Source of the DNA: a virus | DNA: 51,378 nucleotides | Direction: 5' to 3' (one strand) | IMG/VR virus record: IMGVR_UViG_3300042463_001197 | Span: 1-51,378 of that record | In this document: positions 384 through 45,905 of the stretch, one piece after another | How the letters are laid out: each line of letters begins with the position of its first letter | Position numbering within the stretch: the stretch's first letter is position 1 | Translations under genes and position numbers: made by a program | Notes under the pieces: model-generated | Seen by the model: only the letters and a program-made list of their open reading frames with translations | Databases searched by the model: none | What the model was told of the DNA's origin: nothing

Positions 384-682
384 TGAAAGAAGGAAAAGAC
401 TACTTGTTGGTCGAAGATGATTTACATCCAGACCAATTCCTGATACAATTAACAAGTAGCGGATATGCTGGTATCGTTTACCGTTATGGTAAAGTCAGTA
501 TAATTGAGGAAAAAAATCAGGCACGTTTGCGATTTATCTACAAAATCGAGAGCGTGCCTGATTCCCTCACACACCGCCGCGACATGCTAAAAGAAGATCC
601 CGAATTCAATAATCATATCGGTGATATCTTAGCTGACATTATTTCAAACAACGACTACATAATAGGAAGACCACATGACTGA
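383..682 (+). CDS. gp40-like head vertex assembly chaperone
   Basis: A 99-residue protein placed between uvsX and the gp41 helicase, the same place as T4 gene 40. Seen: an opening DYLLVEDDLHPDQFLIQL, then a short beta-rich stretch and a charged C-terminus with no membrane segment. Known: T4 gp40 is a small protein of about 110 residues that helps initiate head assembly at the portal vertex. The length, position and the acidic 'VEDDxHPDQF' opening fit that family, but I rely on memory of the family and on synteny. It starts inside the stop of uvsX and overlaps the helicase start by 8 nt, so the three genes look like one transcript. Confidence 0.6.
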   Translation: MKEGKDYLLVEDDLHPDQFLIQLTSSGYAGIVYRYGKVSIIEEKNQARLRFIYKIESVPDSLTHRRDMLKEDPEFNNHIGDILADIISNNDYIIGRPHD

Positions 683-2444
683 CGTTTCAATCGAATCACT
701 TATATTAAATAATCTTGTCAATAGCGAACCATACACGCGTAAGGCAATGCCTCACATTAAGCCTGAATACTTCACGGGCTCACAACGCGTAATTTATGAG
801 CTGATTCTCGACTTCATCAGTAAGTACAATAAGCTGCCAAACTCTAGCGTACTTGACATTGAATTCCAAAAAAGTAATGCTGCCGTCCGTCCAGACCGAC
901 ATGAGATTCTTCAGGCTATTCATGATTTTGCTACACCTCAGCCAGCCGAACATGATTGGCTTGTAGATAGCACCGAAAAGTGGTGTAAGGATCGCGCCGT
1001 TCATTTGGCTGTTATGGAAGCCATCTCGATCATTGATGGTAAAAGCGCCGATAAAGCCGAAGGAGCAATTCCAGAGATTTTGAACAAGGCGTTGAGCGTT
1101 ACGTTTGACACAAACGTAGGTCACGATTACCTTGAGAACGCAGATCGTCGATTTGATTTTTATCATCACGTTGAAGATAAGATCGAGTTTGACCTTGATA
1201 TGTTCAACCAAATTACCAATGGTGGTGTACCTCGCAAGACTCTGAATATCATCTTAGCTGGGTGTGTTCACCCTGATACTAAAATTGTTGTGAGGATAAC
1301 TTCGCTTGCGGTTGAAAAAGAAATTAAAATCGGTGAAGTGAAAGCTTTACTCGAAAACGGTTATACACTTGAAGTTTCATCTCCTGATGGTTGGGTTAAG
1401 ATATCGGATTTTATCGACAAAGGTCAATGGGATGAATACTCATTCAGTTGTAATGATAAGAATATTTCATGCAATGAAAATCATCTTTTCCAATCAACGT
1501 TAGGGTGGATGAGTGCGAAGGATATATTTAATGCTCAAGAAGTTACTTTATCAAAATTGCACTTTTTCTGTGATACTGGGCGATATGAACCTGGCACAGT
1601 CATAAAAACCGGAAAGAAGATTCCAATTGTTGATATTCACGTTGAGCATAATAACAACCGATACTACACAAATGGAATCTCCTCGCATAATACAGGCGTT
1701 GGTAAGAGTTTGGGTATGTGTCACCTTGCAGCGGCAGATCTTTCCATGGGGCGCGATGTTCTTTACATTACGATGGAAATGGCAGAAGAACGTATTGCTG
1801 AACGTATTGATGCTAACCTGCTTGACGTTCGTATTGATGAACTGAAGAACCTGTCACAAGCCACGTTCTCCTCCAAGATTAAGAACTTGTCAGACCGAAC
1901 AAAAGGTAAGATTGTCATTAAGGAATATCCAACTGCAAGCGCGCATGTCGGTCACTTCCGTGCATTGCTACATGAACTTAAACTGAAAAAGAAGTTCACG
2001 CCTGACGTCATCTACATCGACTATCTTAACATTTGCGCCAGCAGTCGTATCAAAGGTCTAAGCGGAAGTGTCAATACTTACAGTTTAATCAAGGCAATTG
2101 CTGAAGAACTGCGTGGTCTCGCTGTTGAATTTAATGTTCCGATTTGGAGTGCAACACAAACAAATCGCAATGGATATTGTTTAGATCCTTTAACTATTGT
2201 TGAAACGGAATATGGTAATAAACGCTTAAATGAAATTGTGGTTGGTGATTGTATAAAAAGCAATACTGGCTTTAATGAGGTGGTTACAGTGTTTCCTAAA
2301 ACAAAAAAGAAAGCATATCGTATTACGACTTCTTCAGGAAAGACTATTATTTGTAGCGCCGATCATAAATTCCCAGTCAATGATATTGATAAGTCAATTA
2401 ACTCTGGATTAAAAATTGGAGATTCTTTAGTGACGTTGAACTAA
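675..2444 (+). CDS. Replicative DNA helicase (gp41/DnaB), N-terminal piece with two intein segments
   Basis: This frame encodes most of a DnaB-family hexameric helicase, the T4 gp41 type that unwinds DNA 5'-3' at the fork and recruits primase. Residues 1-196 are the N-terminal and linker part. A cis intein fills residues 197-339, splitting the Walker A loop between ILAG and TGVGKS. Helicase sequence resumes with ITMEMAEERIAERI and IYIDYLN (Walker B). At residue 502 (Cys after ATQTNRNGY) an 88-residue split-intein N-half begins and the frame ends. The C-terminal 111 helicase residues are encoded at 3241-3573 behind the intein C-half. After both splicing events the helicase would be 469 residues, close to the 475 of T4 gp41. 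Without trans-splicing no active helicase forms, so the phage depends on it. Confidence 0.93.
   Translation: MTDVSIESLILNNLVNSEPYTRKAMPHIKPEYFTGSQRVIYELILDFISKYNKLPNSSVLDIEFQKSNAAVRPDRHEILQAIHDFATPQPAEHDWLVDSTEKWCKDRAVHLAVMEAISIIDGKSADKAEGAIPEILNKALSVTFDTNVGHDYLENADRRFDFYHHVEDKIEFDLDMFNQITNGGVPRKTLNIILAGCVHPDTKIVVRITSLAVEKEIKIGEVKALLENGYTLEVSSPDGWVKISDFIDKGQWDEYSFSCNDKNISCNENHLFQSTLGWMSAKDIFNAQEVTLSKLHFFCDTGRYEPGTVIKTGKKIPIVDIHVEHNNNRYYTNGISSHNTGVGKSLGMCHLAAADLSMGRDVLYITMEMAEERIAERIDANLLDVRIDELKNLSQATFSSKIKNLSDRTKGKIVIKEYPTASAHVGHFRALLHELKLKKKFTPDVIYIDYLNICASSRIKGLSGSVNTYSLIKAIAEELRGLAVEFNVPIWSATQTNRNGYCLDPLTIVETEYGNKRLNEIVVGDCIKSNTGFNEVVTVFPKTKKKAYRITTSSGKTIICSADHKFPVNDIDKSINSGLKIGDSLVTLN
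1263..1691 (+). other. Cis mini-intein in helicase P-loop (143 aa)
   Basis: Begins with Cys (CVHPDTKI, the intein block A pattern) directly after ILAG and ends with the block G pattern TNGISSHN, followed by Thr as +1 nucleophile of TGVGKS. The penultimate His and final Asn needed for branch resolution are present. At 143 residues it has no room for a homing endonuclease, so it is a mini-intein. The insertion point is inside the ATP-binding loop, the most conserved spot of the protein. Confidence 0.9.
2178..2441 (+). other. Split intein N-half (gp41-1 type, 88 aa)
   Basis: Starts with CLDPLTIVETEYGNKRLNEI and contains the block B-like ICSADHKFP; it ends with the stop at 2442-2444. The length of 88 residues, the flank NGY before the Cys and the internal SNTGFNEVVTVFPK match my recollection of the gp41-1 split intein found in marine metagenomes. 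It would splice in trans with the C-half at 3130-3240. Confidence 0.9.
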
Positions 2445-2451
2445 CACATAT

Positions 2452-2459
2452 TATAAATA
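2452..2459 (+). promoter_or_regulatory. T4-type late promoter box upstream of HNH gene
   Basis: TATAAATA five bases before the ATG at 2465. It would let the inserted endonuclease be made late and independently of the early helicase transcript. No Shine-Dalgarno sequence is seen before that ATG. Confidence 0.6.
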
Positions 2460-2464
2460 GTTAT

Positions 2465-3142
2465 ATGCCAAATAACTATAGAAAAATCTGGGAAGAACAT
2501 AATCATCAAAAAATTCCAGAAGGATATCACATACATCATATAGACGGAAATCATGATAATAATGATCCATTGAATTTAGAATGCTTAAGAGCTGAGGACC
2601 ACTGGCAAAGACATTATGAACAGGGAGATATTGTCGCAATAAACGGCAAATTTATTCAAGGTGCAAGTGAAGCGGGAAAAAAGGGTGGGGCAGCTGGTAA
2701 AGGGAAAACTAAAGATCATAGTAATGGAAAACTATCCAAAAGTTTAAAGGAATCATACATTAAAAGAGGCGGAAGTCCTCTTAAAGGACGCGTTTTGTCG
2801 GATGAACATATTAAAAACATTACATTAGCGGTCCAAGGCGAAAATAATCCAATGTTTGGTAAGAAGCACTCAGAAGAATCAATATCACTAATCCGAATAA
2901 ATAGAGGTTCTCTTGAAGGCGAAAATAATCCAATGTTTGGTAAAACGCAATCAGATGAAACTAAACAAAAAATATCAGATAAAGCAAAAGGGAGAAAATC
3001 GAAGATGAAAGGGCGGATTAACGAAACAACCCGATCAAGAAAATACAAATGGTATAATGATGGGGTAACTTCATTTTTTATGCCAGAAGGAACGCAGCCC
3101 GAAAATTATAAACTAGGAAGAATTAAAACATGGAAGAATTGA
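2465..3142 (+). CDS. HNH homing endonuclease between split-intein halves
   Basis: A 225-residue free-standing endonuclease gene sits exactly between the two halves of the split helicase gene. Seen: an HNH motif (HIHHIDGNHDNNDPLNLECL followed by DHWQRH), then repeated NUMOD3-type DNA-binding motifs NNPMFGKKHSEES and NNPMFGKTQSDET, and a basic stretch KAKGRKSKMKGR. Known: such nucleases cut intein- or intron-less alleles at the insertion site and spread the insert by homologous repair. The gene has its own late-type box and its last 13 nt overlap the start of the intein C-half gene. Probable target: the uninterrupted helicase gene around the NGY/SNSDV junction. The cut site is not known from sequence. 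Confidence 0.9.
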   Translation: MPNNYRKIWEEHNHQKIPEGYHIHHIDGNHDNNDPLNLECLRAEDHWQRHYEQGDIVAINGKFIQGASEAGKKGGAAGKGKTKDHSNGKLSKSLKESYIKRGGSPLKGRVLSDEHIKNITLAVQGENNPMFGKKHSEESISLIRINRGSLEGENNPMFGKTQSDETKQKISDKAKGRKSKMKGRINETTRSRKYKWYNDGVTSFFMPEGTQPENYKLGRIKTWKN

Positions 3143-3240
3143 TTACAAACATAGAAGAATTAGATTATGATATTGAAATGATTGATATTGAAGTAAATGG
3201 TAACCATTTATTTTTTGCTAATAATATACTTACACATAAT
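3130..3240 (+). other. Split intein C-half (37 aa)
   Basis: 37 residues ending in block G ILTHN, followed by Ser as the +1 nucleophile. The length equals what I recall for gp41-1 IntC, as does the core IDIEVxGNHLFxAN. Partner of the N-half at 2178-2441. Confidence 0.9.
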
Positions 3241-3576
3241 TCAAATAGCGATGTTGAACTTACTGATACATCTGAAAGCTTTGGTTTGCCTGCAACAGCA
3301 GACTTGATGATTGCATTCATCAGTACTGAGCAACTTGAAAAGATGAATCAGTTAATGATCAAACAGCTTAAGAATCGTTACAATGATGCCAATAACAACA
3401 AGCGATTTACGGTGGGTATTGATCGCGCTAAGATGAGGCTGTATGATGTTGCAGATCCAACCGCGAATATCATGAGCAATGACTCTTCTTCGGCTGCTCC
3501 AGTCGCGAATACGCCGTTTAGTCGAGGTGGTAATAACAATCAACGTGGTAAAACCTTTAGTGACTTTAAAGTATAA
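3130..3576 (+). CDS. Split-intein C-half plus C-terminal helicase piece
   Basis: Residues 1-37 are the C-half of the split intein and residues 38-148 the C-terminal domain of the gp41 helicase. Seen: IDIEVNGNHLFFANNILTHN, then Ser+1 and SNSDVELTDTSESFGLPATA, which matches the DnaB/gp41 segment after the ATQTN motif, including KNRYNDANNNKRFTVGIDR. The C-terminal tail is rich in Asn and Gly, as in phage helicases that bind gp59 or primase. A clear Shine-Dalgarno (AGGAAG, 3115-3120) lies 9 nt before the ATG, so this piece is translated on its own. It must be joined to the product of 675-2444 by protein trans-splicing to make a helicase. Confidence 0.93.
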   Translation: MEELITNIEELDYDIEMIDIEVNGNHLFFANNILTHNSNSDVELTDTSESFGLPATADLMIAFISTEQLEKMNQLMIKQLKNRYNDANNNKRFTVGIDRAKMRLYDVADPTANIMSNDSSSAAPVANTPFSRGGNNNQRGKTFSDFKV

Positions 3577-3585: not shown

Positions 3586-5136
3586 ATGTCTACAACACTT
3601 AGCTTCAAAGGATACCTAGCCGAGGCGATTTCCTCGTCCTCCGCTGATAAGGCCGCTTTCCTTATTGCTAAATACCTCAAGAAAAAGACGGGATATACTT
3701 TCTTTCGTTATCCAGGACTTGAGGCATTTAGAAATACAAAGGGAAAAGGATTTGGTTTGCGTTTTTACACTAGTAAGAAGAATCGCTCTATTCGTTTCAA
3801 CTGGATCAGTTCCACTGCCGTTGGCATGATTGGTCTAAATAGCATCGACTATTGGGACGGTATCTCCAATACACCTTACCGCATCGAATTTGATACCGAA
3901 GTTTCTCTAGTTAAGACACTGCCAATCATCGCATCCATCTTATCAAATACCAAACCTGAACTTGGTTCGTTCTACACTCTACCAGATGGCATTCCATTGG
4001 AAGAAGCCGGTGTTGTATCAGAATCCTCGATGATTCTTGAGGCAAAAGGTGGCGTTAGCGTTGAGGATATGCTTGATGGTATTCTTGACATGGTTACATT
4101 ACCAAACTTCTCAAAAGGTAAAGTATATAGCGCATACAAAGGCGCTGGCATGAAGATCTTTGATCAACTTGAAATGATGTACCCTTCATTGATTGTCAAG
4201 AGCGGTACAAAGTACAGCTGGAGCGGCGCACCGAAGGATCTGCAAAAGATCAAGAAGGACAAGTCCAAATTGCTTTCCGCAATTGGTAGCGTTGAAGCAA
4301 AGGTCACCAAAGGTGCGTCCAATGAAACATATGAGCCTACAGGTAACATTGCCGACATTGAAAACAATCGTGAGCGTCTTTCGTTTGAAAAGCAGTTGCT
4401 TGACCTTGAAAACTTGCTTAAGCTAACAATCAATGGTTCTGCAAACGCAATCTTCGTTTCAGGTAAAGGTGGTGTTGGTAAGACACACACAACCGAAAAG
4501 ATTCTTGCAAGCATGGGTCTGCGCGACGGTAACGGTTACTTCAAGAACACTGGTTCTGCATCAGCAGCTGGTATGTACTCGTTGTTGTTCCGTTATAAGA
4601 ACAGCATTATCTTCTTCGATGACTCTGACGATGCTCTTAAAGATCAAGAAAGCCGTAACTTGCTTAAGGCTGCAACTGATACCAAGAAGATTCGTAAGCT
4701 TGTTTGGAACAAGATGGGCAAGAACGTTGTTGATAACGAAGATATGACCGACGAAGAAATCCTTGACCAAGGGTTGATTCCACGTTTCTTCGAATTTACT
4801 GGTAAGGTAATCTTTATCTCTAACCTCGATCTTGACAAGTTGGATCCAGACGGCGCACTACGCACTCGCGCATTCATTGTAAACATCGACCCAACTGAAA
4901 TGGAAATCTATGACTTCATGGAAAAGATCGTTGGCGATATTGAACTTGAAGATGGTTTAAGTCTTGATCTTAAAGCACGTAAGCACGTTGTTGATCTACT
5001 ACGCAAAGGTAAGAGCAAGCAAAGCGCTAACCTTCGTAAGCTATCACGTGGACTATCCATGGCAGCAGGAGCAATTGCCGCAGGCGTTGAAGTTAGTGAT
5101 AGTGACCTACAACGCATGATTGAAACATACGCATAA
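3586..5136 (+). CDS. AAA+ ATPase with capsid-targeting-like leader
   Basis: A 516-residue protein with a P-loop ATPase domain in its second half. Seen: Walker A SGKGGVGKTHTTEKIL (about residue 289), Walker B IIFFDDSDD (about 341), a sensor-like VIFISNLDLD and an arginine-finger candidate ALRTRAF. The N-terminus reads LSFKGYLAEA, like the leader shared with the genes at 6737 and 8040. Known: T4 internal head proteins carry a leader MKTYQEFIAE that directs them into the prohead and is cut after Glu by the gp21 protease. Inference: this ATPase may be packaged and injected, or act in the core. The exact function is unknown; helicase-loader-like or chaperone roles are possible. It begins right after a late box. 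Confidence 0.7.
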   Translation: MSTTLSFKGYLAEAISSSSADKAAFLIAKYLKKKTGYTFFRYPGLEAFRNTKGKGFGLRFYTSKKNRSIRFNWISSTAVGMIGLNSIDYWDGISNTPYRIEFDTEVSLVKTLPIIASILSNTKPELGSFYTLPDGIPLEEAGVVSESSMILEAKGGVSVEDMLDGILDMVTLPNFSKGKVYSAYKGAGMKIFDQLEMMYPSLIVKSGTKYSWSGAPKDLQKIKKDKSKLLSAIGSVEAKVTKGASNETYEPTGNIADIENNRERLSFEKQLLDLENLLKLTINGSANAIFVSGKGGVGKTHTTEKILASMGLRDGNGYFKNTGSASAAGMYSLLFRYKNSIIFFDDSDDALKDQESRNLLKAATDTKKIRKLVWNKMGKNVVDNEDMTDEEILDQGLIPRFFEFTGKVIFISNLDLDKLDPDGALRTRAFIVNIDPTEMEIYDFMEKIVGDIELEDGLSLDLKARKHVVDLLRKGKSKQSANLRKLSRGLSMAAGAIAAGVEVSDSDLQRMIETYA

Positions 5137-23367: not shown

Positions 23368-24061
23368 AGATCGTAAATTCTTTGTTCATGATCCTATTGA
23401 TCTTGGGTATGATAACCTAAAGGACAACACCAGTTCTTCAGGCCGAACATACATTACTCCTGAAGGCAAGAAGTATCCAAGCATCACGACCGTACTTGGT
23501 GTACGCTCTAAGGAAGCTATTATGGAATGGCGTAGACGAGTTGGTGAAGAAGAAGCAAATCGCGTATCACGTCATGCAGCTGCTCGTGGAACTGCATTGC
23601 ATACGGTTGCTGAAAACTACATCAACAATGACGTTGAGTATTTTCCGTCTAACACGATGCCACATGTTCGTGCATTGTTCAAAAGCGTAAAGCCAATCAT
23701 CGACACTTACGTCGGTACGGTGGTTCTTCAGGAAAAGCCACTCTATTCTGACCATCTTGGTATTGCTGGTCGTGTTGACCTTGTTGCCGAATTTAACGGC
23801 AAGCTATCAATTGTTGACTTTAAAACGTCTAAGCGCCGCAAAAAACGTGAAGACATTACGAATTACTTTGCACAAGCTACCGCTTATTCAATTATGTTTG
23901 AGGAACGCACTGGAATTCCAGTCCCTCAGTTAGTTATAATTATGGCTGTCGACGATGATCCAAAACCTATTGTGTTTGTTGAAAAACGTAATTCGTGGGT
24001 AGAAGAACTCCAAGGCGCGATTCTCGAGTACAACAAATCAATCCTATTTGGACATGCATAA
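23354..24061 (+). CDS. PD-(D/E)XK exonuclease (Cas4/RecB-like, MGME1 type)
   Basis: A 235-residue nuclease. Seen: ARGTALHTVAENYI, the helix with a metal-binding His, then GIAGRVDLVAEFNGKLSIVD followed by FKTSK, which together make the D ... D-x-K core, and YFAQATAYSIMFEERTG, the QxxxY motif. This order defines RecB-family single-strand exonucleases such as Cas4 and mitochondrial MGME1. It probably processes DNA ends in replication, recombination or host DNA breakdown. It overlaps the ClpP-like gene by 8 nt. Confidence 0.85.
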   Translation: MKLNKDRKFFVHDPIDLGYDNLKDNTSSSGRTYITPEGKKYPSITTVLGVRSKEAIMEWRRRVGEEEANRVSRHAAARGTALHTVAENYINNDVEYFPSNTMPHVRALFKSVKPIIDTYVGTVVLQEKPLYSDHLGIAGRVDLVAEFNGKLSIVDFKTSKRRKKREDITNYFAQATAYSIMFEERTGIPVPQLVIIMAVDDDPKPIVFVEKRNSWVEELQGAILEYNKSILFGHA

Positions 24062-24710
24062 CCAAACACTATTACGTAACGGCAAAGGTCTATTAGACCT
24101 TATTAAAGGATCATCACAGTCAGAATCATTTAGCGCAGACTATGGCTGCATTAAGGATTATTACTTATCAGATGAAATTGGAAGTCCAGATGATTATACA
24201 CAAATGATACAGGATATTCGTTCATCGCGTCAAACCGATGTAGTTAAGCTTCATATCAATTGTCCAGGTGGTAACCTATTTACGACCATTCAGATTCTTC
24301 AAGCAATGGCCGAAAGTGAGGCGCATATTGTCGCAAGTGTCGAAGGAGCATGCATGAGTGCCGCAACTCTCATCTTCTTATGTGCCGATGAATGCATGAT
24401 TACCAACCACAGCATGTTCTTGTTCCACAATTATAGCGGCGGAACATTTGGTAAAGGCGGCGAAATGTACCATGGTGTAATCCACGAACGTAAATGGAGT
24501 GAAGGTTTAATGCGCGACTTATACGGAGACTTTCTGACAAATGACGAAATCACTGAACTCATCAATGATAAGGATATTTGGATGGACGCAAGCCAAGTAC
24601 TTGAACGTCTTGAAAAGCGCGGAAAACTGCACGAGAAGAAAACGAAAGCTGCTGAGAAGGTAAATAACCGAGGAAAAAAGACAAAGGAAGCCACTCTTTT
24701 GACCGAATGA
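24054..24710 (+). CDS. ClpP-like serine protease
   Basis: A 218-residue protein of the ClpP/crotonase fold. Seen: VKLHINCPGGNLFTTIQILQ (the Gly-rich oxyanion region), Ser102 in EGACMSAATLIFL, the nucleophile, and His125 in SMFLFHNYSGG. I start at the ATG at 24054; a TTG six bases upstream is also possible. The Lys-rich C-terminal tail (KKTKAAEKVNNRGKKTK) is unusual for ClpP and may bind DNA, RNA or a partner. Known: T4-like phages use either a gp21 prohead protease or ClpP-like forms; a head protease role is possible, but so is disposal of proteins tagged by the phage tmRNA at 38763. Confidence 0.82.
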   Translation: MHNQTLLRNGKGLLDLIKGSSQSESFSADYGCIKDYYLSDEIGSPDDYTQMIQDIRSSRQTDVVKLHINCPGGNLFTTIQILQAMAESEAHIVASVEGACMSAATLIFLCADECMITNHSMFLFHNYSGGTFGKGGEMYHGVIHERKWSEGLMRDLYGDFLTNDEITELINDKDIWMDASQVLERLEKRGKLHEKKTKAAEKVNNRGKKTKEATLLTE

Positions 24711-33003: not shown

Positions 33004-33116
33004 GCCCCGCTAGGTTAATAGGCAAACCGGCATGCTTCTGTAAGTGCTCGAGCTAAAGGAAGCCATGTGTGTACAGCATGAAAACGCAGTTCTGGGTTCG
33101 ATCCCCAGGCGGGGCT
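33004..33116 (+). tRNA. tRNA with large internal insertion
   Basis: Perfect acceptor GCCCCGC/GCGGGGC, D-arm GGTT/AACC and T-arm CTGGG-TTCGATC-CCCAG, but about 40 nt stand between CATGC and GCATG of the anticodon stem. The insert can itself fold as CATG-CTTC/GAAGC-CATG. T73, no CCA. Anticodon TCT or CTG are both possible. Confidence 0.5.
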
Positions 33117-36605: not shown

Positions 36606-36680
36606 GCTTGTGTAGCTCAACGGTAGAGCACGGAATTCTAACCTCCTGTGGTATGGGTTCAAATCCCATCATAAGCACCA
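36606..36680 (+). tRNA. tRNA-Arg(TCT) 2
   Basis: Acceptor GCTTGTG/CATAAGC, loop TTCTAAC in a bulged stem CGGA/TCC-T-G, T-arm ATGGG-TTCAAAT-CCCAT, A73 CCA. Confidence 0.75.
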
Positions 36681-38680: not shown

Positions 38681-38756
<76 letters not shown>

Positions 38757-38762
38757 CTTTAT

Positions 38763-39099
38763 GGGGATGTTTTGGTTTCGACATAATCGGAGAAACAGCA
38801 TCTGCAATCAAAGGTCTGCACGACCTCTTAAGTGCAAAACAACAAAAGGCGAAAATACCTTAGCTCTCGCTGCTTAAGCCGCGATCGTTTGTCAATGACT
38901 CCTCTATTTGATAAGCGAACGACAGAGGATATCATGCATAGAGAAATTATGCTACGAAGTGTATAAGAGATGATACACTCGGGCGCTGTTCCGTTATGCA
39001 GATAGTCAGTAAGATGACAATAAACTCTTAATATGATTGTAGGACAGATGCTGATGCACTGGTTGTGGACGCTGGGTTCAACTCCCGCCATCTCCACCA
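38763..39099 (+). ncRNA. ssrA: Phage-encoded tmRNA (SsrA)
   Basis: A 337-nt gene of tmRNA length. The 5' end GGGGATG pairs with CATCTCC, followed by A73 and CCA; the 3' end GGGTTCAACTCCCGCC is nearly the bacterial tmRNA T-arm, and the 5' part TTTTGGTTTCGAC matches the tmRNA D-loop region. A tag reading frame ends ...GGC GAA AAT ACC TTA GCT CTC GCT GCT TAA (38848-38877), that is GENTLALAA, with the ALAA degron of bacterial tags; the resume codon is uncertain (TGC 38833, AAA 38836). Known: with SmpB it frees stalled ribosomes and tags proteins for ClpXP. There is no smpB in the window. Confidence 0.93.
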
Positions 39100-39110
39100 A
39101 TTTCTATAAT

Positions 39111-39185
39111 GCGGGTATGGTCTAATGGCTATGACGCGACCTTGCCAAGGTTGAGATGAGGTTTCAATTACCTCTACCCGTACCA
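39111..39185 (+). tRNA. tRNA-Gly(GCC)
   Basis: Acceptor GCGGGTA/TACCCGT, anticodon arm CGACC-TTGCCAA-GGTTG, T-arm GAGGT-TTCAATT-ACCTC, A73 CCA. Confidence 0.92.
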
Positions 39186-39275: not shown

Positions 39276-39396
39276 GCTCCTATAGCTCAGAGGAAGAGCG
39301 CATCCTTTTGATAAATATAATTGATGAAAACTTCAATATGTGAAATATGTTTGAGTATGGATGAGGCCGAGATTTCAAAATTCTCTAGGAGCTCCA
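39276..39396 (+). tRNA. Thr-type tRNA interrupted in the anticodon loop
   Basis: Acceptor GCTCCTA/TAGGAGC, T73, D-arm GCTC/GAGC, T-arm GAGAT-TTCAAAA-TTCTC as in tRNA-Thr(TGT) at 29765, CCA. Between CATCC and GGATG of the anticodon stem are about 53 nt instead of 7, so there is an insert of about 46 nt. The insert contains GATAAATA and an ATG six bases later, which looks like the start of a lost nuclease gene or a small intron. Confidence 0.6.
39310..39317 (+). promoter_or_regulatory. Late-type box inside the interrupted tRNA
   Basis: GATAAATA six bases before an ATG at 39324 that opens a 30-codon frame ending at 39416. The frame is probably a remnant, not a gene. Confidence 0.3.
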
Positions 39397-43354: not shown

Positions 43355-44539
43355 ATGAAAGCGCAAATTGTAATTGACACCTCTTTTGGTGATGGTGGTA
43401 AAGGCCTGACGGTGGATAATCTCTGCCGTCAGGCCGTCCTCCGCGGCGAGTCTGTAGCAGTTGTTCGCTTTAGTGGCGGTCAGCAATGCGGTCATACTGT
43501 TATCCGCGAAGGGATTAAGCATGTCTTTTCTACGTATGGTTCCGGAACTCTTCAAGGTATTCCTACCTATTATACTGAACATGCGACGATGAGTCTGCAG
43601 GCAACACTGACAGAGTATTTTGCTCTGCGTGAAAAGTGTATAGAGCCAAAGCTGTATTTCCATCCTCAGACACGTCTCACTACACCATATGATGTTGCTT
43701 ACAATCGTGCAAAAGAAAGTGCTGCTTACTCTGGCGGTCGTGCAGGTGATGTACGACATGGGAGCTGTGGCATGGGAGTTGGCGCTACTCTAAAGCGTCA
43801 TGACGAAACACCATACAAGATTTATGTAAGCGATTTGCTTTATCCTCAACTATTAAGACAAAAGCTCGACGGCATTAAAATGTACTATGCACGTAAAGTT
43901 CATTCTGAAGCTCTTAATGATAGTGACGGTCTTGGACACGGTCAATCGTTTTACAGTGCTTTTCATTCTGAAGTAAACGAGCAACTTGAATCTTTCGAAG
44001 CAGCTCTTGAACTAAGCAAAGAACATGTCGCGTTTGAAATTGCTAACCTTTACCCAAACCAATTTCGCAATTTGATCTATGAAGGTTCTCAGGGAGTTCT
44101 TCTTGACATGGATCATGGTATCTTTCCAAACGTAACTTACGGTAATACGACGTGCAAGAACGCAATTGAACATGCGTCGCGCTTGGGTATTCGTGACATC
44201 GAATTATTCTATGTGTCGCGTTGCTATCTCACACGTCATGGTCGCGGATGGATGCCAAATGAAACTGAAATCAAATTGGTCAATACCGATGAAGAGATTA
44301 ATGTTACTAATCCCTGGCAAGAACATTTACGAATTGGAGAACTTGACTATGATTTGATTGACTATGCCTTGACGGTTGACAATGGATATCATCGTGATTC
44401 CTATCGTCGTAACATGGTGATTACTTGTCTTGATCAACGTCCTGATTGGAAACTTGACACCACTCGTCTTCCATACTACATTCAAGGAGTCTACACAAAT
44501 GCATCTCCGCAAGCTGACTCTTGGGTGCTTGCGAAATAA
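43355..44539 (+). CDS. Adenylosuccinate synthetase family enzyme (PurA/PurZ-like)
   Basis: A 394-residue GTP-dependent ligase related to PurA, shorter than host PurA (about 430). Seen: FGDGGKG where PurA has WGDEGKG, SGGQQCGHT where PurA has GGHNAGHT, YEGSQGVLLDMDHGIFPNVT (the GAQG..LD.DHGTYPxVT block) and CYLTRHGRGWMPNE. In the aspartate-binding region it has NPWQEHLRIGELD instead of the PurA TGRxRRxGW.D. Known: phage PurZ enzymes make the 2-aminoadenine precursor from dGMP and aspartate. The altered residues make a PurZ-like or other non-PurA substrate plausible, but this is inference. Confidence 0.82.
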   Translation: MKAQIVIDTSFGDGGKGLTVDNLCRQAVLRGESVAVVRFSGGQQCGHTVIREGIKHVFSTYGSGTLQGIPTYYTEHATMSLQATLTEYFALREKCIEPKLYFHPQTRLTTPYDVAYNRAKESAAYSGGRAGDVRHGSCGMGVGATLKRHDETPYKIYVSDLLYPQLLRQKLDGIKMYYARKVHSEALNDSDGLGHGQSFYSAFHSEVNEQLESFEAALELSKEHVAFEIANLYPNQFRNLIYEGSQGVLLDMDHGIFPNVTYGNTTCKNAIEHASRLGIRDIELFYVSRCYLTRHGRGWMPNETEIKLVNTDEEINVTNPWQEHLRIGELDYDLIDYALTVDNGYHRDSYRRNMVITCLDQRPDWKLDTTRLPYYIQGVYTNASPQADSWVLAK

Positions 44540-44597: not shown

Positions 44598-45905
44598 ATG
44601 AAAACAAACATTAAGAATACTCCGAAGAACTTCACCCACGAAGGCGCGGTTGCGAAAAACATCAATGCAAAGCAAGAATTGCGACGCACCGTTATGTCGT
44701 GTTTGCTGTGGGAAAATAGTTTCTATGAAAGCGGTGTCGATATCGCTTCACGCATCGCAGATCTTGTTCCACGCGTAAGCGGTAAGGAAGCAATGGAGAT
44801 TGCAATTGAATGTCGATCCTCAATGAAGCTGCGTCATACGCCGCTTTACATTGCTCGACTTATGGCACAAAACGCGCATCAGCGCGAGTATGTTGCACAG
44901 ACGTTGTATGCAGTCATCCAGCGTGCAGACGAACTCTCTGAGTTCCTTTCTCTCTACTGGAAGAATGGCCGTGTCCCAATTGCTAAGCAGGTCAAGAAAG
45001 GTCTTGCGTCGGCGTTCACCAAGTTCAATGAATATGCTCTTGCAAAGTATAATCGTGATGGTGCAATCAAGCTGCGTGACGTCTTGTTCATGGTACACGC
45101 TAAGCCAAAGGATGCCGAACAGGCTGCTCTTTGGAAGCGCCTTGTCAACGACGAATTGAAGACTCCAGATACCTGGGAAGTTGAATTGTCGGCTTCGTCT
45201 GACAAGAAGGCTTCTTGGACTCGTCTGTTGTCCGAAAATAAGTTGGGTGCATTGGCGCTGTTGCGTAACCTTCGTAACATGAAGAACGCTGGTGTGGACG
45301 ACATGCTAATTCGTGACGCATTGCGTAATATCAATGCAGATCGTGTTCTTCCATTTCGTTTCATCAGTGCTGCGCGTCATGCACCAAGTCTTGAAGCTGA
45401 ACTTGAAGCTGGTATGTTTAAGTGTTTGGAGGGACACGCTAAGTTGCCAGGTAAGACTGTAGTGTTGATCGACGTCTCTGGTTCGATGATTTGGAAGATC
45501 AGCGACAAGAGTGACATCAACCGTATTGACACTGCATGTGGACTTGCTATGCTGCTACGTGAAATTTGTGATACCGTCGAGGTTCATACTTTCTCAACTG
45601 CAGTTCGTGAAGTTGCACCACGTCGTGGTTTTGCACTCGCCGAAGCTATCAATCGTTCTCAGCCATACGGCGGAACTGATCTTGGGCATGCGGTTAAAAC
45701 GGTCAATGGAATCAACTGTGATCGTCTAATCGTTATCACCGACGAACAGAGCTCGACACGAGTTCCAGATCCAGTGTGCAAGAAGAGCTACATGATCAAC
45801 GTTGCTTCTTACAAGAACGGTGTTGGTTATGGCCCTTGGACTCATATTGACGGTTGGAGCGATTCAATCGTTACTTACATCCAGGCGCTCGAAAACACGC
45901 ATTGA
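44598..45905 (+). CDS. Ro60-like TROVE-vWA protein
   Basis: A 435-residue orthologue of Ro60/Rsr. Residues 1-280 form the TROVE ring: FTHEGAVAKNINAKQELRRT, LLWENSFYESGVDIASRI, QVKKGLASAFTKFNEYALAK and TPDTWEVELS, then LALLRNLRNMKNAGVDDML. Residues 285-435 are a vWA domain with a MIDAS site D292-V-S-G-S, T360 in GGTDLGH and D382 in ITDEQSS. Known: Ro60 rings bind misfolded RNA ends and Y RNAs; bacterial Y RNAs contain tRNA-like modules and link Ro60 to nucleases. In this phage the natural ligands may be the tRNA-like RNAs of the island at 26-40 kb. Confidence 0.93.
   Translation: MKTNIKNTPKNFTHEGAVAKNINAKQELRRTVMSCLLWENSFYESGVDIASRIADLVPRVSGKEAMEIAIECRSSMKLRHTPLYIARLMAQNAHQREYVAQTLYAVIQRADELSEFLSLYWKNGRVPIAKQVKKGLASAFTKFNEYALAKYNRDGAIKLRDVLFMVHAKPKDAEQAALWKRLVNDELKTPDTWEVELSASSDKKASWTRLLSENKLGALALLRNLRNMKNAGVDDMLIRDALRNINADRVLPFRFISAARHAPSLEAELEAGMFKCLEGHAKLPGKTVVLIDVSGSMIWKISDKSDINRIDTACGLAMLLREICDTVEVHTFSTAVREVAPRRGFALAEAINRSQPYGGTDLGHAVKTVNGINCDRLIVITDEQSSTRVPDPVCKKSYMINVASYKNGVGYGPWTHIDGWSDSIVTYIQALENTH

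Follow-up and report, generated by a model that had tools for sequence, protein, structure and literature searches.

tmRNA frees stuck bacterial ribosomes and marks unfinished proteins for destruction. Phages that carry a gene for it numbered ten in 2014 (PMC4131195), 402 such phages were counted among 18,146 genomes, i.e. about 2% (PMC9004378), and huge phages are known with both tmRNA and SmpB (PMC7162821). The preliminary description of the locus presented here held that tmRNA genes are rare in phages and cited some mycobacteriophages; they are indeed uncommon, but the figure of 402 genomes shows that they are not limited to a few mycobacteriophages. Complete phage tmRNAs occur in large genomes, often beside many tRNAs (PMC4131195, PMC5764925, PMC8928761), as in the mycobacteriophage Bxz1 group, Bacillus phage G, the Streptomyces BE1 phages and Stenotrophomonas phage Marzo. 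Two other arrangements have been described: the two-piece permuted tmRNA, found in phage Melnitz and the pelagiphages, which are T4-like and aquatic (PMC9004378), and the tRNA-like tmRNA of mycobacteriophage DS6A, which is without the tag part.

The DNA analysed in this study (the window) is a linear IMG/VR virus record of 51,378 bases. We showed that it encodes a one-piece tmRNA with a complete and conserved tag part, in a phage lineage that differs from the Bxz1 group, phage G, the BE1 phages and Marzo. The gene matches RF00023 from end to end (cmscan, Rfam; model positions 1-374 of 374, 117.3 bits, gathering score 47, E 2.9e-45). This covariance search had been proposed in the preliminary description, and the alignment over all 374 model positions confirmed exactly the span given there. 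Both tRNA-like ends, the CCA (39097-39099) and the GENTLALAA-stop frame were likewise found in the sequence as claimed (Table 1). The folding energy of the RNA lies 3 s.d. below that of dinucleotide shuffles, with 0 of 100 shuffles as low. A match of 51 bits to the two-piece permuted tmRNA (RF04321; 38695-38877) was rejected because the true 3′ half of the tmRNA lies downstream; this match is a composite of the 3′ half of a tRNA-Ala and the 5′ half of the tmRNA, and composites of this type can mislead annotation.

Table 1. Features of the tmRNA locus and of the ClpP-like gene in the window.
Feature	Coordinates	Strand	Evidence and remarks
ClpP-like serine peptidase	24048..24710	+	PF00574, 39.4 bits (cut-off 20.2); phrog_1827
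tRNA-Ala(TGC)	38681..38756	+	ARAGORN; RF00005, 72.5 bits; 6 nt upstream of tmRNA
One-piece tmRNA gene of 337 nt with encoded CCA	38763..39099	+	RF00023, full model length
Acceptor stem, 5′ strand GGGGATG (includes G3 of G3.U70)	38763..38769	+	partner 39089-39095
Helix H2, 5′ strand	38782..38790	+	partner 39059-39067; 6 of 9 pairs changed on both sides across the family
PK1 (S1 AGGTC/GACCT, S2 TGCAC/GTGCA)	38812..38836	+	gene nt 50-74
Tag frame GENTLALAA-stop	38848..38877	+	resume codon GGC 38848-38850, stop codon TAA 38875-38877
Second conserved helix	38900..38929	+	TCCTCT 38900-38905 with AGAGGA 38924-38929
T arm; U 39073 bulged	39071..39088	+	cousin G003 without this U
Acceptor stem, 3′ strand CATCTCC, discriminator A, CCA	39089..39099	+	sequence
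tRNA-Gly(GCC)	39111..39185	+	ARAGORN; RF00005, 60.2 bits; 11 nt downstream of tmRNA

Relatives of the gene were collected by pattern scans of viral contigs followed by Rfam checks; many matches of the scan GTTTCGACRTRA...YTGCAAY were due to chance and were removed by a filter on T arm and tag. This yielded nine distinct members, i.e. the window and eight more, all from metagenomic viral contigs: the window (=G001), G003, G010=G011, L173, L174=L176, L170, L194=L232, L195=L196=L214=L222 and L202. Their tags read GENTLALAA, GENNLALAA, GENQLALAA, GINNLALAA, GKNTLALAA or GNNTLALAA, always with GGC as the first codon and TAA as the stop (9/9). Residues vary at positions 2 and 4 of the tag, and positions 5-9 (LALAA) show synonymous codon changes only. 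Between the window and G003, 19 of 337 positions differ, none of them in the tag frame. A virion protein of the window has relatives with 93% identity in G002, 55% in G082, G083 and G085, and 47% in G080; several of these contigs, whose records are fragments, are therefore kin. The gene thus persists in related phages. Besides its intact tmRNA, contig L232 carries (from 8912, + strand) a second, truncated copy, a relic in which the 5′ part extends as far as the tag start and tRNA-like sequence follows. A longer tmRNA of 405 nt with a frame ending VFALA-stop (L118:9894-10298) was observed, together with a ROOL RNA (3739-4329), on a 174-kb phage contig.

The structure of the nine members is under selection. 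In a MAFFT alignment with an RNAalifold consensus structure, 95.4% of cells are paired, and at 17 of 41 pairs both partners have changed. None of 500 shuffles did as well, and pairing fell to 42-49% when the partners were slid by 1-3 columns. Since the structure was derived from the same nine sequences, the latter control is biased in its favour and the compensatory changes weigh more. Of the further pseudoknots of the model (PK2-PK4), one covarying helix came out clearly; this second conserved helix, which is probably part of a downstream pseudoknot, shows changes on both sides at 3 of its 6 pairs and pairing in 98% of cells. G3.U70, the wobble pair that is read by AlaRS and confers alanine identity, is kept in all nine members, while acceptor pairs 2, 4, 5 and 7 covary; in L174 pairs 2, 4 and 5 have been replaced with G3.U70 retained. 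These comparisons are evidence that structure and tag of the phage copies are maintained by selection and that the copies are not relics. The covariance-model match, the covariation and the conserved tag frame together bear out the original proposal of a tmRNA that is encoded by the phage and whose tag ends in ALAA.

The same comparison settled where the tag begins. The tag frame (GGC GAA AAT ACC TTA GCT CTC GCT GCT TAA) is the sole frame that persists across relatives, and its GGC lies 11 nt from the end of PK1 in the window and 10-12 nt from it in all nine members; at most 1 of 300 shuffled sequences per member equalled the best PK1. The spacing between PK1 and the resume codon is about the same in Escherichia coli. 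In an ssrA tag the initial alanine is supplied by the charged tmRNA, and the resume codon need not encode Ala; on this reading of the sequence the full tag is (A)GENTLALAA. The resume codon, which had been called unclear because an expected GCA for Ala was out of frame with the ALAA end, is therefore GGC, and the difficulty arose from a misreading: the GCA in question (38834-38836, gene nt 72-74) is implausible as a resume codon because it is paired within stem 2 of PK1, and its frame is not conserved. ARAGORN read GENTLALAA for G010 and G011. The tags AKTQKAKIP and AQQQKALIT that it gave for G003 and L194 depend on the same choice of a GCA in the PK1 stem, again in an unconserved frame, and were rejected.

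The family resembles bacterial one-piece tmRNA (ssrA), notably that of Bacteroidota, with which it shares the G3.U70 acceptor stem, the T arm, H2, PK1 and a nine-residue tag ending in ALAA. The Bacteroidota tags GENTFALAA and GENNYALAA are one or two residues from the family tag, and GEYNYALAA is alike in length and ends. However, the phage genes are shorter (320-337 nt vs about 350-405 nt), their 5′ and internal sequences differ, the tag has Leu in place of Tyr/Phe, and the window copy has, in addition, an irregular T stem. The tags compared were those of Bacteroidota, and their likeness may be taken as a weak lead to the host. No match to the tmRNA of L195 was found in the isolate phage collection; when isolate phages were searched with the window locus, coverage of the query stayed below 80% in every record, and among the matches listed all fell on tRNA-Ala. 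Phage tmRNA is a known kind of gene, to which these data add a coherent family, recovered here from metagenomes only.

The gene lies within an array of about 40 tRNAs (approximately 26.8-39.8 kb). The window encodes proteins matching DnaB/gp41 helicase, ribonucleotide reductase and T4-type RNase H, and its virion protein has relatives in T4-like cyanophages and in phage HMO-2011, so the virus is probably a T4-like phage; its first 25 kb gave no match to phages by megablast. Several other features of the window were observed. A tRNA gene at 39276-39396 (possibly also at 33004-33116) is interrupted by about 46 nt, precisely at its anticodon; its intact cousin in G003 is a tRNA-Thr(GGT) (L236:684-758), excision of the 46 nt in the window would give an AGT (Thr) anticodon, and the interruption could be an intron, a relic or an inactivating insert. 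The tRNA at 36606-36680 has the anticodon CTA (amber suppressor type). The TAG recoding at which it hints left no sign in the stop codons of 28 long ORFs (TAA 20, TGA 6, TAG 2). The gp41-type helicase (675-3576) occupies two ORFs (675-2444 and 3130-3576), the first ending in an intein-like N half, with a free-standing HNH/NUMOD3 endonuclease (2465-3142) between them, and looks like a split-intein fractured gene. This phage with its large tRNA array also encodes a Ro60/TROVE-domain RNA-binding protein (44598-45905), as well as a relative of adenylosuccinate synthetase (43355-44539) that matches a PHROG for 2-aminoadenine (PurZ-like) synthesis and may point to modified-base DNA.

We consider that the RNA probably serves ordinary trans-translation during infection. 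It would be transcribed and processed together with the adjoining tRNAs, and the neighbouring tRNA-Ala and tRNA-Gly probably share its precursor. Host AlaRS would charge it via G3.U70, and host SmpB and EF-Tu would deliver it to ribosomes that have stalled because the mRNA is broken or lacks a stop codon; a host SmpB is presumed because a search of eight records for SmpB (PF01668) found none. Translation would then restart at GGC 38848 and append the tag. Recognition by ClpX, as suggested in the preliminary description, is predicted from the LAA end, which would route the tagged product to ClpXP.

The main doubt about the window copy is its T arm, GACGC-T-GGG TTCAACT CCCGC. Five pairs can form around the loop TTCAACT, with U 39073 bulged; G003 lacks the extra U (GACAC-GGG TTCAACT CCCGT). 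Other T arms are also odd (a 6-bp stem is possible in L202, about four pairs in L174, and in L170 the T loop is altered and CCA is absent) and, with the truncated copy of L232 and the lack of a detected SmpB, they too count against an ordinary role. The bulge may lower the efficiency of the window copy. A stronger version of this argument, i.e. that the family works while the window gene is starting to decay, the inserted U weakening its handling by EF-Tu, SmpB or AlaRS so that the copy is inactive or poor, seems to us unlikely. It gains from the restriction of the bulge among members to the window and G001 (separate records, but perhaps not independent samples) and from decay seen nearby in the clade, namely the truncated L232 tmRNA and the interrupted tRNA-Thr of the window. 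Yet the outer pair of the T stem, beside the bulge, is still compensated (G-C in the window vs A-U in G003), the tag is unchanged, the remainder of the RNA pairs well, and T stems of four and six pairs are tolerated in other members.

Two further explanations concern the role of the RNA. That the tmRNA competes with host trans-translation by titrating SmpB, in the manner of DS6A, is very improbable: phage tmRNA-like RNAs with such an effect exist (PMC4131195, PMC11915505) and the failure to find a phage SmpB would suit this reading, but the tag, stop codon, PK1 and resume spacing, all needless for a decoy, are conserved here, whereas DS6A has lost the tag part. It is harder still to believe that the gene is a host ssrA acquired at an attachment site and serving no phage role. 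Integrases often use ssrA, and the Bacteroidota-like tmRNAs (GENNYALAA type) that we found on viral contigs L165-L168, L171, L172, L175 and L177 might be such acquisitions. The window gene, however, is complete and sits in mid-array among the tRNA genes of a T4-like phage, the scanned proteins included no integrase, and its sequence is far from the Bacteroidota-like copies and belongs to a gene family shared by several related contigs. Most likely, the phage tmRNA supplements host trans-translation during infection; the likely benefit would be that ribosome recycling is kept up while mRNAs are cut and host tmRNA is in short supply.

The T arm may also bear on how such genes are found. ARAGORN reported 40 tRNAs and no tmRNA in the window. 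It detected five of the nine members, with the wrong tag frame in two of them; Infernal detected all nine. The four that it missed (the window, L202, L174 and L170) are those with deviant T arms, and we infer that their T arms are the reason; in the window this is probably the bulged U. Earlier surveys of phage tmRNAs used ARAGORN (PMC9004378, PMC7162821), and their counts are probably low, because this program misses or misreads phage tmRNAs.

A possible partner of the tmRNA pathway is the ClpP-like peptidase encoded in the window. Its catalytic Ser, His and Asp positions and the motifs ACMSAATL, FLFHNYS and KDIW are conserved in orthologs on kin contigs, several of which carry the gene at 54-83% identity; it lies outside the head genes, and ClpP is also found in the T4-like Vibrio phages KVP40 and nt-1. 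That the peptidase and the tmRNA are linked is conjecture. One could imagine that the clade has its own tag-and-destroy set, consisting of the tmRNA with its clade-specific GxNxLALAA tag and the peptidase, in which rescued peptides would go to a phage-modified Clp protease and the change of the tag from Tyr/Phe, as in bacteria, would serve to fit this protease or to evade the RNases by which host tmRNA is cut; we regard this scenario as improbable. The presence of a ClpP-like gene on a tmRNA contig makes a phage-run pathway of tagging and degradation a testable idea.
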